This document shows, piece after piece, positions 21,760 to 27,875 of a stretch of 64,000 nucleotides of DNA; within the stretch, counting starts at the first letter, position 1, and each line of letters opens with the position of its first letter. The DNA comes from Myroides odoratus DSM 2801 (GTDB lineage: Bacteria; Bacteroidota; Bacteroidia; Flavobacteriales; Flavobacteriaceae). The stretch is taken from NCBI RefSeq assembly GCF_000243275.1, contig NZ_CM001437.1:3742807-3806806 (forward strand). Reading direction: 5' to 3'. The position numbers and the translations under genes are program-made. Below the pieces are notes generated by a model that saw only the letters and a list, made by a program, of their open reading frames with translations, was not told the DNA's origin and searched no databases.

Positions 21760-21916
21760 AAGGTGAGATGGTGAGGAGGTGAAATCGGAACGCAGTGTAG
21801 ATTCATCGAATACCAAAACAAATATAAACCCATGAGATAGATGGTGAGGAAGGTGAGGTTTGTTTTTTGTGAGGTTTGTTCTTTGTGAGGTTTGTTCTTT
21901 GTGAGGTTTGTTTTTT
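21760..21916. repeat. Composite spacer repeat with 4 x 16-bp tandem
   Basis: A gtgagg tract (21760-21780) and the conserved block 21779-21848 (gtgaaatcggaacgcagtg ... gagatagatggtgagg; related at 4604 and, inverted, 42537) are followed by four tandem 16-bp units, GTGAGGTTTGTTYTTT, at 21853-21916. No gene was seen in 21612-22054. Confidence 0.88.
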
Positions 21917-22054: not shown

Positions 22055-22525
22055 ATGAAAGAAATGAGAAAAATTTTACTTTATTTTTTCATACTGCTAT
22101 GCAGTTTGAATGCCTTAGCAGGTAAACGCATAATTAAAGGACAGGTGTTAGGAGAGGATGGTTATCCTTTACCTGAAACTTCTATCGTGGAAAAAGGAAC
22201 AAAAAATAGTGTAAGCACAGATTTGGACGGAAAATTTGAAATAAGAGTGAAAAATAAAAAGGATAATTATCTTGTGGTTTCTTTTAAAGAATGCGAAACG
22301 AAAGAAGTTAAACTCGATAAAAAGGAAAAATTTTATACCATTATTTTAGTAGATAACGCTCCTTCAGCAGAATTGATTATTAATACAGGATATATTAGTA
22401 ATCAACGAAGAAGGGGAGGGTATCCAGATATTAAAATTTCAGAAGAAGTTTTGGCTAGAGAGCGTAGGAGGATTGAAAAGACAGCGACTGAAGTGCCTGT
22501 AGATGGTAAGAATAAAGAAAAATAA
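22055..22525 (+). CDS. Short secreted CarboxypepD_reg-like protein, array member 1
   Basis: 156 residues: signal peptide (MRKILLYFFILLCSLNALAG), a CarboxypepD_reg-like beta domain (~22-100, with KGQVLGEDGYPLPETS and DLDGKFEIRV), then INTGY, where SusC-type receptors start their plug, and a short basic/acidic tail (QRRRGG ... TEVPVDGKNK). It ends where a receptor would continue. It is the first of three units at exact 649-bp spacing (22055, 22704, 23353). It reads as a stand-alone N-terminal receptor domain; function unknown. Confidence 0.75.
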   Translation: MKEMRKILLYFFILLCSLNALAGKRIIKGQVLGEDGYPLPETSIVEKGTKNSVSTDLDGKFEIRVKNKKDNYLVVSFKECETKEVKLDKKEKFYTIILVDNAPSAELIINTGYISNQRRRGGYPDIKISEEVLARERRRIEKTATEVPVDGKNKEK

Positions 22526-22703
22526 AAGAAAGAACAAACGGACGCTAAAAAGCTTAGAACAAAATCAACGTTAAAACAGAATTTAGATTTTTGTATGAAA
22601 AATCAAGAATAAAAGATGAGCTGTTTAGTATTGACTTCTAGAAAAAAAGTTTTTGATTAGCTTGTCTTTTATTTACTATATTAGTTTTTATTCACCCAAA
22701 AGA

Positions 22704-23174
22704 ATGAAAGAGATGAGAAAAATTTTACTTTATTGTTTCATACTGCTATGCAGTTTGCATGTTTTGGCAGGGCCAAGGAAAATTAAAGGACTGGTGTTAG
22801 GAGAGGATGGTTATCCTTTACCTGGAACTTTTATTCTTGAGAAAGGGACTGAAAATGGTGTAAGCACAGATGTGGACGGAAAATTTGAAATAAGAATAGA
22901 AAATAAAAATAGCAAAATTATTGAAGTTAGATATCTTGGGTTTCAAACACAAGAAGTTAAGTTGGATAAAAAGGAAAAATTTTATACCATTACTTTAGTA
23001 GAAGACGCTCCTTCAGCAGAAGTGATTATTAATACAGGATATATAATTAATCAACGAAGAAGGGGAGGGAATCCATATATTAAAATTTCAGAAGAAGATT
23101 TGGCCAGAGAATATAGGAGGATTGAAGAGACAGCGACTGAAGTGCCTGTAGATGGTAAGAATAAAAAAAAATAA
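22704..23174 (+). CDS. Short secreted CarboxypepD_reg-like protein, array member 2
   Basis: From ATG 22704, 156 residues, the same length as member 1. Signal peptide, CarboxypepD_reg-like domain (GLVLGEDGYPLPGTF, DVDGKFEIRI), INTGY, then a tail close to that of member 1. It differs in the strand region at residues ~65-80 (NKNSKIIEVRYLGFQ versus NKKDNYLVVSFKECE). An upstream in-frame ATG at 22653 lies in the repeated spacer and gives no signal peptide, so it is not used. Confidence 0.75.
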   Translation: MKEMRKILLYCFILLCSLHVLAGPRKIKGLVLGEDGYPLPGTFILEKGTENGVSTDVDGKFEIRIENKNSKIIEVRYLGFQTQEVKLDKKEKFYTITLVEDAPSAEVIINTGYIINQRRRGGNPYIKISEEDLAREYRRIEETATEVPVDGKNKKK

Positions 23175-23352
23175 AAGAAAGAACAAACGGGCGCTAAAAA
23201 GCTTAGAACAAAATCAACGTTAAAACAGAATTTAGATTTTTGTATGAAAAATCAAGAATAAAAGATGAGCTGTTTAGTATTGACTTCTAGAAAAAAAGTT
23301 TTTGATTAGCTTGTCTTTTATTTACTATATTAGTTTTTATTCACCCAAAAGA

Positions 23353-26300
23353 ATGAAAGAAATGAGAAAAATTTTACTTTATTGTTTCATACTGCTATGC
23401 AGTTTGAATGTCTTAGCAGGTAAACGCATAATTAAAGGACAGGTGTTAGGAGACGATGGTTATCCTTTACCAGGAGCTTCTATCATAGAAAAAGGGACGA
23501 AAAATGGTGTAAGCGCAGATATTGACGGAAAATTTGAAATAAGAGTAGAAAATAAAAAGGACAATTATCTTGTGGTTTCTTTTATTGGGTTCCAAACAAA
23601 AGAAGTCAAACTTGAAAAAAAACAAGACTTATATACAGTCACTTTATTCGAAGATAAAAATGCATTAGAAGAAGTGATTATTAATACCGGATATGAACGT
23701 GTTTCTAGAAAAGTACTTACTGGATCAGTCGCGCGTATTTCGAGTGATCAATTAGTAGCTAGTGGCGTTTCAGATGTTAGTCGTATGATTGAGGGAAGAG
23801 CTGCTGGTGTAACAGTAGGTTATCGCGATGCTAAGTACGATCGAGAGGAACAAGACGAGGAACAGGTAGGATCCAAAGAAACGTGGAAAAAATCGAGTTT
23901 AAGAGATAATGCCATGCGTTTAGAAATTGGCGATAATGAGTTTTTAGCGCTAGAAGATGCTCAGGTAGCCTTGCAAATTGAAGGAAACCGCATTCGCGTT
24001 TTGATTGATGCTTACTTTTTTAATGATAAACAAAGCGGTTTAGAGGGAACGTTTAAATTAAAACTACCCGTTGATGCTTCTCCTTATTATTTTGCTTTTG
24101 GAGAAACAACATTATTCGATCGAGATAAAAAAGGAAACACAGCAACTCCTGTTGTACAACTTCATGATTATACGCAAGAAAATTTTGATTTGTCGATGGT
24201 TGGTATTCAAAAAAGAAAAGACCAACAAGCCATCAAACAAGCGAAGATAACCGAAAAAGAAACTGCTGCAGATGCGTATTTTTCTACAATTAAACGCAAG
24301 GTAGATCCAGCGTTGATGGAGTGGTCTGGGGCAGATATGTTTAGCTGTCGTGTTTTTCCGTTACAGGCCAATAAACTACACCATATTGTCATTGGATATG
24401 ATGTAGATATGGTAGAAGGGATGGATTTTAGAGCTTTTGGCTTGAATTTACCAGAGGTGAAGAATAAATTACGTGTGGATTTGGCTGTTGCAGATGAAAA
24501 GGACTATGTTATTACACCACTGAAAGACGCAGTTGTACAAAAGGCAAATAAAAAACAGTATATCACGTATTTTAATCCAACCGAAAAAGAAATTACGATT
24601 CGCTTCAATCATGTGGCTCCTCTTGTTTTAGAACAACAAGGAGAAGATTCTTATGTGGCTGGAATTATGCGTGTTAACTTGCCTCGTGAAGTAGATGAAC
24701 ATATGGCAAAAGACGCTGTTTTTATGCTGGATACTTCGTTGAGTTCTTCTCCAGTTTTATTTGGAGTTTGGGTGAATTTAATCGAGGAAATCCTCCGTCA
24801 AAATGAAGGAATAATTGAGCGATTTGCAGTACTTAATTTTAATATTGGCACCCAATGGTATCAAGAAAAATGGGTAGAGAATACCACAAAAAATAGAGAG
24901 CTAGTAGCAAAATATCTAAATAATCTTGCGCTAGAAGGAGCAACAGATTTAGGAAGAGCCTTACAAGAAGCTTCTCATCCGTCGTGGCTAAAACAAGAAA
25001 CGCGAAAAAATATTTTTTTGCTGAGCGATGGCGATTTGAACTGGGGATTGAGTCAGCGTGATTTACTCGCAAAGAACCTTCAAAAAGGAGACAAAATCCA
25101 TACGTATAAAACGGGAATGTCAGGGACTAACACCGAGCTTTTAGATTATTTAAGCACATTGACTAATGGAAGCTCATTCACTGCTAATAGTGAAGCTCAA
25201 TTAATTGAAAGTGCAAAGGCTTTGCGCTATAAAACGTGGAAAGTAGAACGTGTTTTTGGAGAAACAGCAACAGATATTCTCTTAGCAGGTGGAGTGATTC
25301 AACTGTATGATGGACAAACCATACAATTGGCTGCTCGTGGTTCATTAGATAAACCGATTCAAATCAAGGCGTCTTCGGGTAATCAAATGAAGGTAATAAC
25401 GTTTATGCCTACCTATAAGGTGAAGTCAGATTTGGCTTCTCGTATGTATGGAAAGATAGCCTTAACACAACTAGAAGAAATTGGAAATGAACTAAAATCG
25501 GCGAGTGTAGATTACTCGATTTACTATAGCGTACTGAGTAATTACACCTCTTTTCTAATGCTGGAAACACAGCAAGAGTACGAAAATTATAAAATCAAGA
25601 GTTTTGATGTTGCGGCGAAATTTGTCAAAGAATTTACCGTACATGAATTGTTGAAAGAATTTATAAATACTAAAGAGGTAACAGCCAAGCAACTATTTGA
25701 AAATTGGCTTACTTTATTAAAAAAACATAACTTGTTAGATAGTGGGGACGAGGTGTTTACTAATTTTGTCAGTGAAATGAGCGAGCAAGATTTTGTTATT
25801 CATCCCCAATCTGTTTTTTCTGTTTGGGAAAAGAATGGACAAACAAAAGAAGAACAGAAAATCTTAAGCCAAGAGGATGTTACATTTGATGCCTTACAAC
25901 TTTTAGCAAATCAAAGGGAAGTAAAGAAAGGACAAGCAGATGCTTTAAAATTATTGAGTTCGATGATTGAGCACAATGGTAGTGATGTAGATGTTTTACG
26001 CGATTTATTGACGAGTACACTTAATTTGAGCTACGGTTACGATAGTTATTATTTGGGACAAAAGATATTGAATACTCGCTTGTATGATGGCTTGGTCTAT
26101 TTTAATATGGCCAGGGCTTTAGAGGAGAATAATCCAAAGCTTGCTGCTGTATTTTATTATTTATGTTATGCAATTGATTTTAATGATGGAAATGATTATG
26201 GTAGTTTAAAAGAAATTAGTGGACTTTTTGCTTCTACATTTCTCAAACAATGGGATAAAAAGAATACACGAGGTTCGGTTAAGGAGAAGATGTTTATTAA

Positions 26301-26721
26301 ACAACTAAGAGAACAAACAAAAGAGGAATATGAATCATACTTCGACGAAAATCTAACCCCTGATTTAGTTGTCTTGGTGTATTGGAACCTTGATAGTACT
26401 GATTTAGACCTGCATGTGATAGAAGCTTCAAAAGAAGAATGTTACTATGGTAATACGGACACAAAATTAGGCGGTAAGCTATCACTTGATGTTACGGATG
26501 GATTTGGTCCTGAGATGTATGTACTACCTAAGGCTAAATCAGGAAAATATGAAATTTCGTTGAACTATTTCTCAGAGAATGATATGCGTACAAAATCAGC
26601 TGCTAAAGCTTATGTAGAAGTGTATAAAAATTTTGGTACATCCAAACAAAAAGTAAGTAGAAAGACCATCATGTTAAAAGAGCAAAGAAATAAAGAAGTC
26701 GTTGAGACTGTTGTTTTTTAA
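23353..26721 (+). CDS. Chimeric surface protein: CarboxypepD_reg, partial plug, VIT, VWA, DUF2135-like
   Basis: 1122 residues from ATG 23353. Order: signal peptide (~1-20); CarboxypepD_reg-like (~22-100); a receptor-plug-like remnant (~108-160: EEVIINTGY, GSVARISSDQLVASG, MIEGRAAGVTVGY); a VIT domain (~185-310, LEDAQVALQIEGNRIRVLID); a VWA domain (~454-640) with an intact MIDAS DTSLSS, a GATDLGRAL stretch and FLLSDGDLNW; a helical middle (~770-990); and a DUF2135-like C-terminal domain (~1003-1110, YWNLDSTDLDLHVIE). No barrel strands follow the plug remnant. VIT+VWA proteins bind other proteins in a metal-dependent way. The N-terminus is shared with the two short genes upstream. A strong hairpin terminator follows. 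Probably periplasmic or surface; function unknown. Confidence 0.85.
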   Translation: MKEMRKILLYCFILLCSLNVLAGKRIIKGQVLGDDGYPLPGASIIEKGTKNGVSADIDGKFEIRVENKKDNYLVVSFIGFQTKEVKLEKKQDLYTVTLFEDKNALEEVIINTGYERVSRKVLTGSVARISSDQLVASGVSDVSRMIEGRAAGVTVGYRDAKYDREEQDEEQVGSKETWKKSSLRDNAMRLEIGDNEFLALEDAQVALQIEGNRIRVLIDAYFFNDKQSGLEGTFKLKLPVDASPYYFAFGETTLFDRDKKGNTATPVVQLHDYTQENFDLSMVGIQKRKDQQAIKQAKITEKETAADAYFSTIKRKVDPALMEWSGADMFSCRVFPLQANKLHHIVIGYDVDMVEGMDFRAFGLNLPEVKNKLRVDLAVADEKDYVITPLKDAVVQKANKKQYITYFNPTEKEITIRFNHVAPLVLEQQGEDSYVAGIMRVNLPREVDEHMAKDAVFMLDTSLSSSPVLFGVWVNLIEEILRQNEGIIERFAVLNFNIGTQWYQEKWVENTTKNRELVAKYLNNLALEGATDLGRALQEASHPSWLKQETRKNIFLLSDGDLNWGLSQRDLLAKNLQKGDKIHTYKTGMSGTNTELLDYLSTLTNGSSFTANSEAQLIESAKALRYKTWKVERVFGETATDILLAGGVIQLYDGQTIQLAARGSLDKPIQIKASSGNQMKVITFMPTYKVKSDLASRMYGKIALTQLEEIGNELKSASVDYSIYYSVLSNYTSFLMLETQQEYENYKIKSFDVAAKFVKEFTVHELLKEFINTKEVTAKQLFENWLTLLKKHNLLDSGDEVFTNFVSEMSEQDFVIHPQSVFSVWEKNGQTKEEQKILSQEDVTFDALQLLANQREVKKGQADALKLLSSMIEHNGSDVDVLRDLLTSTLNLSYGYDSYYLGQKILNTRLYDGLVYFNMARALEENNPKLAAVFYYLCYAIDFNDGNDYGSLKEISGLFASTFLKQWDKKNTRGSVKEKMFIKQLREQTKEEYESYFDENLTPDLVVLVYWNLDSTDLDLHVIEASKEECYYGNTDTKLGGKLSLDVTDGFGPEMYVLPKAKSGKYEISLNYFSENDMRTKSAAKAYVEVYKNFGTSKQKVSRKTIMLKEQRNKEVVETVVF

Positions 26722-26784: not shown

Positions 26785-27423
26785 CTATCCCTCAATTTCA
26801 TCACACAATTCTTGTAAACTGTGTAATAACTGAGCTACATGTAAACCATCACAAGTAGCGTGATGCACTTGAATGGAAATCGGCATTAAAATTTCATCCC
26901 CTTGAACGGAGTATTTTCCCAAAGTAAAAATAGGTGCAAAGTAATCGCCAAAACCAGGTACATTCAGGTTAAAACCATCAAAACTTACCCAGGGAATCAT
27001 CGATATATTGAATATATTTTCGATGCCTTGTTGAGGCGATAAGGCATAATTGTCCTTATACTGGTCGTGTGTTTGGTCATATTCCGCTAAGAATACCTTT
27101 AAATCGTCGGTATACATCGTGTATAATTCAGAAAAGGTTTCCGTCTCTGGATGCATAATCGTATAAGCAGGATGGATAATATCCCATTGAATAAGTTCCC
27201 CCTCTTTCATGGCAAATTTAAAAGCAGCGTGCTTATTTACTGCCTTTGCCAGTAAATAAATGATTGTGGGATAGAATTTATAGTCGTTCGCCTTGATAAA
27301 AGGAAGGACTTTGCTGATGTTTATTTTTGTGGTTAAGCTAAACCCACAACGCAATTGATCTTTAAAATGGTAGAAATGCTCTTTTCTGTTCCATGTTTCT
27401 ATGTCGAATTTTTTGTAACTCAT
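26785..27423 (-). CDS. cat: Chloramphenicol acetyltransferase (classical CAT)
   Basis: 212 residues from MSYKKFDIETWNRKEHFYHF, the canonical CAT opening; an ATG four codons earlier is possible. The catalytic motif HHATCDG is intact. The fold includes PWVSFDGFNLN and FTLGKYSVQGD. Trimeric CAT acetylates chloramphenicol on the 3-hydroxyl with acetyl-CoA. No transposon features, integron site or composition change are visible nearby, so it looks resident rather than newly acquired. No leader-peptide attenuator was recognised upstream. Confidence 0.9.
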   Translation of the reverse strand: MSYKKFDIETWNRKEHFYHFKDQLRCGFSLTTKINISKVLPFIKANDYKFYPTIIYLLAKAVNKHAAFKFAMKEGELIQWDIIHPAYTIMHPETETFSELYTMYTDDLKVFLAEYDQTHDQYKDNYALSPQQGIENIFNISMIPWVSFDGFNLNVPGFGDYFAPIFTLGKYSVQGDEILMPISIQVHHATCDGLHVAQLLHSLQELCDEIEG

Positions 27424-27554
27424 CTTGTCATACAAATTTTAATAAAGAAAGCAAAAGTACAAGGATTATTCGATTTAGAGGGGTGTACCCCCAAAAGAAG
27501 GAAGTGGAACGGATGAATAAAGGATGAATAGTAAGGCTTAATTTAGGATCCAGC

Positions 27555-27875
27555 TTAAGCTTTTCCTAGTTCAAGAGCTAATACCCCTGCGATAATCAGT
27601 GCAAGTCCGAAAAGCTGGATGATGGTTAGGGTTTCTTTAAAAACGACTAAGCCAATAAGGGCGAGTATGGTAATACCAAGTGCTGCCCAGATACCATAGG
27701 CAATTCCAATAGACATCCCCTGTTTGAGTGAAAGAGACAGTAAATAATACGCTCCTACAACGCCTAAAACAGCGATAATTGAGGGAATTAATTTTGTAAA
27801 ACCATTGGATTGTCTAGTGGCTAATGCACCGATAACTTCAGCTAAAATAGCTGCGATAAGAAAAATGTATTTCAT
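27555..27875 (-). CDS. Small multidrug resistance (SMR) efflux protein
   Basis: 106 residues, four membrane helices, the size of EmrE/QacE proteins. The membrane-embedded Glu (Glu14 in AEVIGALATRQSNGF) that binds protons and drugs is present. SMR dimers export cationic compounds by proton exchange. It is divergent from a HxlR regulator, with a 145-bp shared promoter region holding a candidate operator. Drug versus guanidinium specificity cannot be decided here. Confidence 0.9.
   Translation of the reverse strand: MKYIFLIAAILAEVIGALATRQSNGFTKLIPSIIAVLGVVGAYYLLSLSLKQGMSIGIAYGIWAALGITILALIGLVVFKETLTIIQLFGLALIIAGVLALELGKA

Follow-up and report, generated by a model that had tools for sequence, protein, structure and literature searches.

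Three Myroides odoratus genes with a common SusC-type N-terminal extension: a VIT-VWA protein and its probable partial copies

What does a receptor-type N-terminus do in front of a protein that is not a receptor, and why are two free copies of it encoded next door? The question is raised by three adjacent genes of Myroides odoratus DSM 2801, within a stretch of 64,000 nucleotides (the window; contig NZ_CM001437.1, positions 3,742,807 to 3,806,806) of a 4.30-Mb single-contig genome. Two of them, short 1 and short 2, encode small proteins carrying the N-terminal extension (NTE) of SusC-type transporters, and the third, the long gene, encodes a large, secreted, adhesin-like protein with an NTE ahead of a VIT-VWA body. 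The answer that we favor, with a probability of a little under 0.6, is that the long protein is a periplasmic VIT-VWA protein tethered by a SusC-type NTE and a TonB box, and that the shorts are recombining partial copies. The features are as follows.

22055..22525, + strand: short 1, a 156-residue secreted NTE protein with a TonB-box-like motif and a charged tail (PF13715 at residues 27-93)
22367..22390, + strand: TonB-box-like motif of short 1, AELIINTG (alignment; placed after the NTE as in the BT1763 passages of PMC7782687)
22526..22703, + strand: spacer separating the two shorts (matches the one ahead of the long gene at 177 of 178 bases)
22704..23174, + strand: short 2, a 156-residue secreted NTE protein with a TonB-box-like motif (Pfam; AlphaFold2 model)
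23016..23039, + strand: TonB-box-like motif of short 2, AEVIINTG (alignment)
23175..23352, + strand: spacer between short 2 and the long gene (spacer comparison)
23353..26721, + strand: long gene, 1122 residues, with NTE, TonB-box-like motif, VIT, VWA, helical region and DUF2135-like end (Pfam, model)
23353..23421, + strand: long-protein signal peptide, without a lipobox by eye (sequence; model helix at residues 5-19)
23422..23646, + strand: NTE of the long protein (CarbopepD_reg_2), residues 24-98 (Pfam; model; 9hfj, TM-score by target 0.86)
23665..23691, + strand: TonB-box-like motif of the long protein, LEEVIINTG, residues 105-113 (in the low-confidence stretch 103-169)
23881..24636, + strand: VIT-like beta domain, about residues 177-428 (PF08487 at 296-349; model; limits approximate)
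24712..25227, + strand: VWA domain with a metal-ion-dependent adhesion site (MIDAS), about residues 454-625 (Pfam, homologue alignment, model, profile)
25432..26343, + strand: mostly helical region, about residues 694-997 (model)
26359..26715, + strand: DUF2135-like beta domain, about residues 1003-1121 (19.2 bits, below the cut-off of 22; model)

A preliminary description of this locus placed the start codons 649 bp apart three times and called the arrangement a tandem triplication. The spacing is right (ATGs at 22055, 22704 and 23353, 649 and 649 bp apart), but three starts give two intervals, and while the 5′ ~300 bp do occur three times (with 82% and 89% identity to copy 1), the complete 649-bp unit is present in two copies only. 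The 150 bases upstream of short 2 are identical to the 150 bases upstream of the long gene. That these repeats are beyond chance is settled, because the repeated stretches are 82-100% identical over 300 bases. Lengths are counted from the ATG, also for short 2, where the program starts the open reading frame at an upstream TTG, and all three proteins have a signal peptide by eye. A search for sigma-70-type promoters found 17 where 16.9 are expected, and gives no information. Upstream of short 1, a 16-bp unit (GTGAGGTTTGTTCTTT type) is repeated about four times (window 21853-21916); the syntenic stretch of a related genome, G290, has one copy.

The domain content is mostly as first described. 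PF13715 is found in all three proteins (44.2, 49.1 and 59.8 bits; cut-off 32.2), and the shorts are, as described, two 156-residue secreted proteins with a CarboxypepD_reg domain. The long protein continues into VIT (PF08487, 37.6 bits, cut-off 26.5), VWA_2 (PF13519, 30.3 bits, cut-off 27.0) and a DUF2135-like end below its cut-off; the MIDAS residues D460, S462, S464 and D559 are invariant in 41 aligned homologues, and T531 was read from the long-protein sequence. A receptor-type module thus does stand ahead of a non-receptor body, with two free copies of the module beside it. As for the receptor itself, neither the plug (PF07715) nor the barrel (PF00593) matches any of the three proteins at E ≤ 1, and TIGR04056 reaches, among the window proteins, 123.7 of 368.25 bits over residues 27-156 only. 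The long gene is one open gene and not a sequencing fusion of two frames, because it is a single open frame and has homologues of the same length and architecture. The "plug opening" ascribed to the shorts holds only for its first residues: what they have in common with the long protein is the beginning of that region (INTGY, at the TonB-box place), but their last 43 residues align to the long-protein linker no better than shuffled sequences (148 of 500 shuffles as good for short 1, 255 of 500 for short 2).

Structure prediction had been proposed earlier as a check. The AlphaFold2 model of short 2 (m2cdc3c1c375c) has a mean confidence score (pLDDT) of 72.7, with about 82-96 in the NTE and mostly 40-60 in the tail, and its closest PDB structure is the NTE of BT3090 (9hfj, TM-score by target 0.91). 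The long-protein model has a mean pLDDT of 82.0, with residues 103-169, motif included, below 50; its closest PDB structure is human ITIH1 (6fpy_B, Foldseek E 2.4e-24), which a 41-row profile of the long protein also detects by sequence (2.9e-8).

Right after the NTE, each protein has a motif resembling a TonB box, and the passages of Gray et al. (2021; PMC7782687) on the SusC protein BT1763 give the same order, an NTE (Pfam 13715) followed by the TonB box VDEVVV. The motif is conserved in the family. A strict pattern is kept in 54 of 69 NTE-bearing homologues; when the 60 residues leading up to the VIT domain are scanned, the strict pattern turns up in 53/69 and a loose one in 64/69, while random body stretches of the same length contain them in 2.5% and 20.2% of cases. 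The signature E[VIL]..[GAS][YF] (EVVxGY-type) occurs in 55 of the 69 homologues with an NTE and in 0 of 51 without. Across 60 rows the TonB-box-like motif is the best conserved of the pre-VIT stretches compared (mean pairwise BLOSUM62 score 2.97, against 1.97 for the NTE, 1.32 after the box, 0.90 in the linker and 0.73 in the signal).

Is the long architecture peculiar to this genome? It is not: it is widespread in databases and no local chimera. A search with the body gave 396 homologues among 7,999 scored candidates, and in 69 of the 120 listed (domains from precomputed Pfam annotation) an NTE (PF13715) precedes the same body. Identity to the window protein reaches 70% or more in nine of these (all Myroides where an organism is given), among them P0001, named Myroides odoratus and 99% identical over residues 175-1122; the other 60 are more distant, and among the named members are Dysgonomonas, Parabacteroides, Tannerella and Taibaiella. 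In many members the NTE seems to stand in for the membrane (lipoprotein) anchor of the family, because 32 of the 51 listed homologues without an NTE show, in a crude scripted search, a lipobox-like Cys behind a hydrophobic signal. Some of the other NTE-less proteins start with cytoplasmic stretches, with zf-HC2 in P0113 and, below cut-off, in P0098. Two Myroides-like genomes, G180 and G319 (L106 and L107), each carry an NTE form and a 997-residue lipobox form about 5 kb apart, and we read the pattern of NTE and lipobox forms as an interchange of the envelope tether.

In whole genomes the complete body is rare: 77 of 398 of the GTDB genus match it somewhere, and only four over its whole length (G000, G382, G319, G180). 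At class level, 2 of 395 genomes match at E ≤ 1e-60, the window's own included; the other, G421, has a lipobox form of the body gene, and no NTE short was identified beside the body in other taxa of these 395 genomes. Next to the body gene of G421 lies a 167-residue secreted protein (L112:7450-7950) of NTE type by eye, with no Pfam match at E ≤ 0.1.

The preliminary description also spoke of a surface machine, and this part is not supported. There is no lipobox by eye in the window long protein and none by pattern search in P0001, while the same kind of search finds one in P0010 and P0011; nor is there a barrel. The NCBIfam library includes models of the type IX C-terminal sorting domain, and none of these matches at E ≤ 1.

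Next to the demonstrated domain content, fold resemblance, N-terminus interchange and motif conservation we set the following mechanism. The long protein would reside in the periplasm and belong to a VIT-VWA family, widespread among bacteria, whose body folds like the ITIH heavy chain, and in which, in many members, a SusC-type NTE and TonB box on a flexible tether would take the place of the lipoprotein anchor. Once the protein is exported and its signal peptide cleaved, NTE and TonB box may attach the VWA body to a partner in the periplasm, TonB itself or a complex served by TonB being the likeliest, and a protein ligand would be bound at the MIDAS of the VWA domain. The source of the shorts would be the 5′ end of a long gene in Myroides, copied by partial tandem duplication or cut down by internal deletion, and recombination among themselves and with related sequences would have reshuffled them. 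Their products would be small periplasmic NTE/TonB-box proteins, at most competing for the same partner (a competitor role via the TonB box is possible in principle), and probably no conserved part of what the long protein does.

Where do the shorts come from? The shorts are rare: a single-sequence search found 11 proteins, and a profile search 13 strong ones (E ≤ 2.3e-54), the next match being at 1.6e-17 (82 bits). Five of the 13 bear an organism name, Myroides in each case, and lengths vary from 116 to 177 residues. In a midpoint-rooted tree of 56 NTE rows, 20 of them SusC-type, all 16 shorts group with five Myroides-like long N-termini (80/84), apart from the SusC-type rows, and 12 of the 16 fall in one clade, starred in the tree (97/98), beside the window's long gene (89/82). 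An origin of the shorts from SusC, the other candidate considered, is thus not supported. One short, P0130, joins the N-terminal module in frame to 26 residues that are 73% identical to the last 26 of the window long protein (alignment score 92; best of 500 shuffles, 53). Likeness to the long-protein linker is present in three of seven database shorts, P0126, P0127 and P0133 (0, 0 and 1 of 500 shuffles as good), and absent from the other four. P0133, named M. odoratus, is identical to the second short of G290, and is 50% identical over 144 residues to the long-protein N-terminus of Myroides sp. 1354. Spread of the shorts by plasmids was also considered and rejected: tblastn gave 9 records, all below 60% identity, 6 of them annotated receptors and 3 unannotated. 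Elsewhere in the same genome (L037:1105-2524), adjacent proteins of 234 and 230 residues form another tandem pair of small proteins with a CarboxypepD_reg-like domain; they have in common a likely cytoplasmic N-terminus, a likely membrane helix, the CarboxypepD_reg-like part and a KKK(R)WLFF end.

The three 5′ ends have also exchanged sequence. Recombination is shown because near-identical spacers (177/178 sites after short 1 and after short 2) flank divergent NTE cores (182/231 between the shorts), and because a breakpoint is supported. The 5′ ends differ at 85 sites, and the test used the 62 at which short 1 agrees with one of the other two genes, leaving out 23. As far as column 259 the partner of short 1 is the long gene at 34 of 40 sites; beyond it, short 2 is the partner at 20 of 22 (permutation p 5e-5 for a maximum chi-square of 33.6).

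If the three genes were a set, we would expect to find them together. We compared five related loci outside the window and searched their genomes with the long protein at E ≤ 1e-10. None of the five holds both: three have the long gene only (L106, L107, L108) and two have shorts only (L109, L110), although distant shorts under the E-value limit could have escaped in the three long-only genomes. Myroides sp. 1354 (G382) has the synteny of the window and the long gene only, and G180 and G319 have the long gene in a different setting, with no shorts found. In G290, with the same synteny and neighbors 87-98% identical, there are two shorts; this genome is 98% complete, the interval lies on one contig, and neither the genus genome search nor the search with the long protein finds a body match. 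In G081 the long-protein body finds no match, and a single short, with the same sequence as P0131 from M. fluvii, lies in a different setting. For G290, loss of the long gene would be the simpler history, because the more distant Myroides sp. 1354 has it at the syntenic place. With 0/5, there is no fixed short-plus-long system of the kind first described, and the shorts look like local, often-reshuffled duplicates rather than a conserved partner of the long gene. The outcome comes near to the one named earlier as fatal to a system, recent local duplicates absent elsewhere, without being identical to it: shorts do occur elsewhere in Myroides, only not with the long gene. A chloramphenicol-acetyltransferase-like gene and a neighboring 106-residue gene (window 26785-27875) are present in the window and in G290, with no match listed in the syntenic stretch of Myroides sp. 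1354 (L108).

Are the shorts then without function? Duplication leftovers, open only through youth, would have the same origin as in the reading that we favor and differ from it on function; we regard this as the strongest rival, though somewhat less probable than not. The shorts are mosaic, recent duplicates of variable length, and one joins the module to a C-terminus like that of a long protein. Between short 1 and the first short of G290, dS is 0.075, against 0.36-1.29 for seven neighboring genes, and dN/dS is 0.555, against 0.04-0.16; for the tails, two comparisons give an omega of 0.80 (12 changes) and 1.08 (5 changes). On the other side, dN/dS of 0.50-0.57 among closer shorts falls to 0.23-0.40 among more distant ones, no copy seen has a frameshift in the NTE, and shorts are retained without a long gene in G290 and in the M. 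fluvii genome. Judged from these ratios, selection on the shorts is weaker than on the neighboring genes, yet not absent.

Several points count against the reading of a tethered periplasmic protein with partial copies. TonB binding by the long protein or the shorts is putative and unproven, drawn from motif and position, and we infer the periplasmic location from missing signals. The motif patterns were drawn up after the sequences were seen, and the motif may be an inheritance from SusC receptors if the fusions are recent or repeated. The superposition of the body on ITIH1 is loose (TM-score by target 0.47, rmsd 9.5). The tree leaves 15 of its 53 forks open and has no root beyond a midpoint, and five other Myroides-like long N-termini fall outside the shorts' group (80/84). 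Behind the low dS of short 1 stand 7 silent changes. The ratios of 0.23-0.40 among more distant shorts mean that selection has acted on them, and the open frame and signal peptide in every short copy seen could mean function, in databases of predicted proteins that hide broken copies.

A bolder version makes the NTE-VIT-VWA proteins barrel-less TonB clients, in which the Ton motor would pull on a periplasmic ITIH-like machine by way of the SusC-type NTE and TonB box that take the place of the lipid anchor, and the free Myroides NTE/TonB-box proteins would be decoys tuning access to TonB. It fits proposals in passages of one paper (PMC12204202) that NTE-like domains meet TonB and that vWA proteins can serve motors, and we hold it to be improbable. 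Still more doubtful is the idea that the shorts store NTE cassettes which, by recombination into the long gene, vary its docking module: conserved flanks do surround divergent NTE cores, the breakpoint is supported, and in the comparison of the window with Myroides sp. 1354 residues 26-160 of the long protein have diverged at about 3 times the rate of the body (dN 0.395, dS 1.42, against dN 0.124, dS 1.27), but P0001, the one other long protein named M. odoratus, has nearly the same NTE as the window's, and no swap into the long gene is seen. Least likely of all is a single functional system in which the long protein is regulated by short NTE proteins that bind to it or to its partner, since adjacency on one strand, identical 150 bases upstream of short 2 and the long gene, a common NTE and open frames in every copy seen are set against 0/5 loci holding both and a selection on short 1 weaker than on its neighbors.

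How does the tethered VIT-VWA protein compare with known systems? SusC/RagA transporters (BT1763, 6ytc; BT3090, 9hfj) likewise have, in the passages of PMC7782687, a signal peptide, the NTE fold and a TonB box directly after it; unlike them, the window long protein has no plug and no barrel, and about 65 low-confidence residues lead into the VIT-VWA body. With ITIH1 (6fpy), best PDB match of the model and matched by the profile over the VWA region, it has the VIT-VWA arrangement in common; unlike ITIH1 it is bacterial, with a helical region, a DUF2135-like end and an NTE in front, and identity is about 15% in a loose superposition. The marine proteobacterial sortase target TIGR03788, also VIT-VWA, matches weakly at residues 422-744 (32.6 bits, under the cut-off of 551.65), and its N-terminus is a different one. 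Passages of PMC12204202 propose that envelope vWA proteins are driven by Ton/Tol-type motors and connect an NTE-like domain in PorE with TonB interaction; the PorE model gives weak matches to short 1 (16.1 of 600 bits) and short 2 (11.8). The motor-coupled vWA proteins of those passages are membrane-tethered transducers beside motor genes, whereas the long protein would be a TonB-box client. BamP of Flavobacterium johnsoniae is likewise a small periplasmic Bacteroidota protein, described in passages of PMC12611786 as a pair of folded domains with a connecting loop that reaches into BamA; short 1 matches the BamP model NF053692 over residues 1-94 (22.5 bits, under the cut-off of 230), and short 2 and the long protein are not among the listed matches. 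In the open-access papers searched, we found none joining TonB box with von Willebrand factor or DUF2135 with VIT, and no title or abstract opening describing an NTE-VIT-VWA-DUF2135 architecture.

In the passages of PMC7782687, removal of the NTE in B. theta leaves no detectable growth on levan after 24 h, a worse outcome than loss of the TonB box. With a barrel-less family that keeps both NTE and motif, the effect of NTE and TonB could be studied on a protein other than a transporter, and the Myroides shorts are a minimal natural version of the NTE/TonB-box module.

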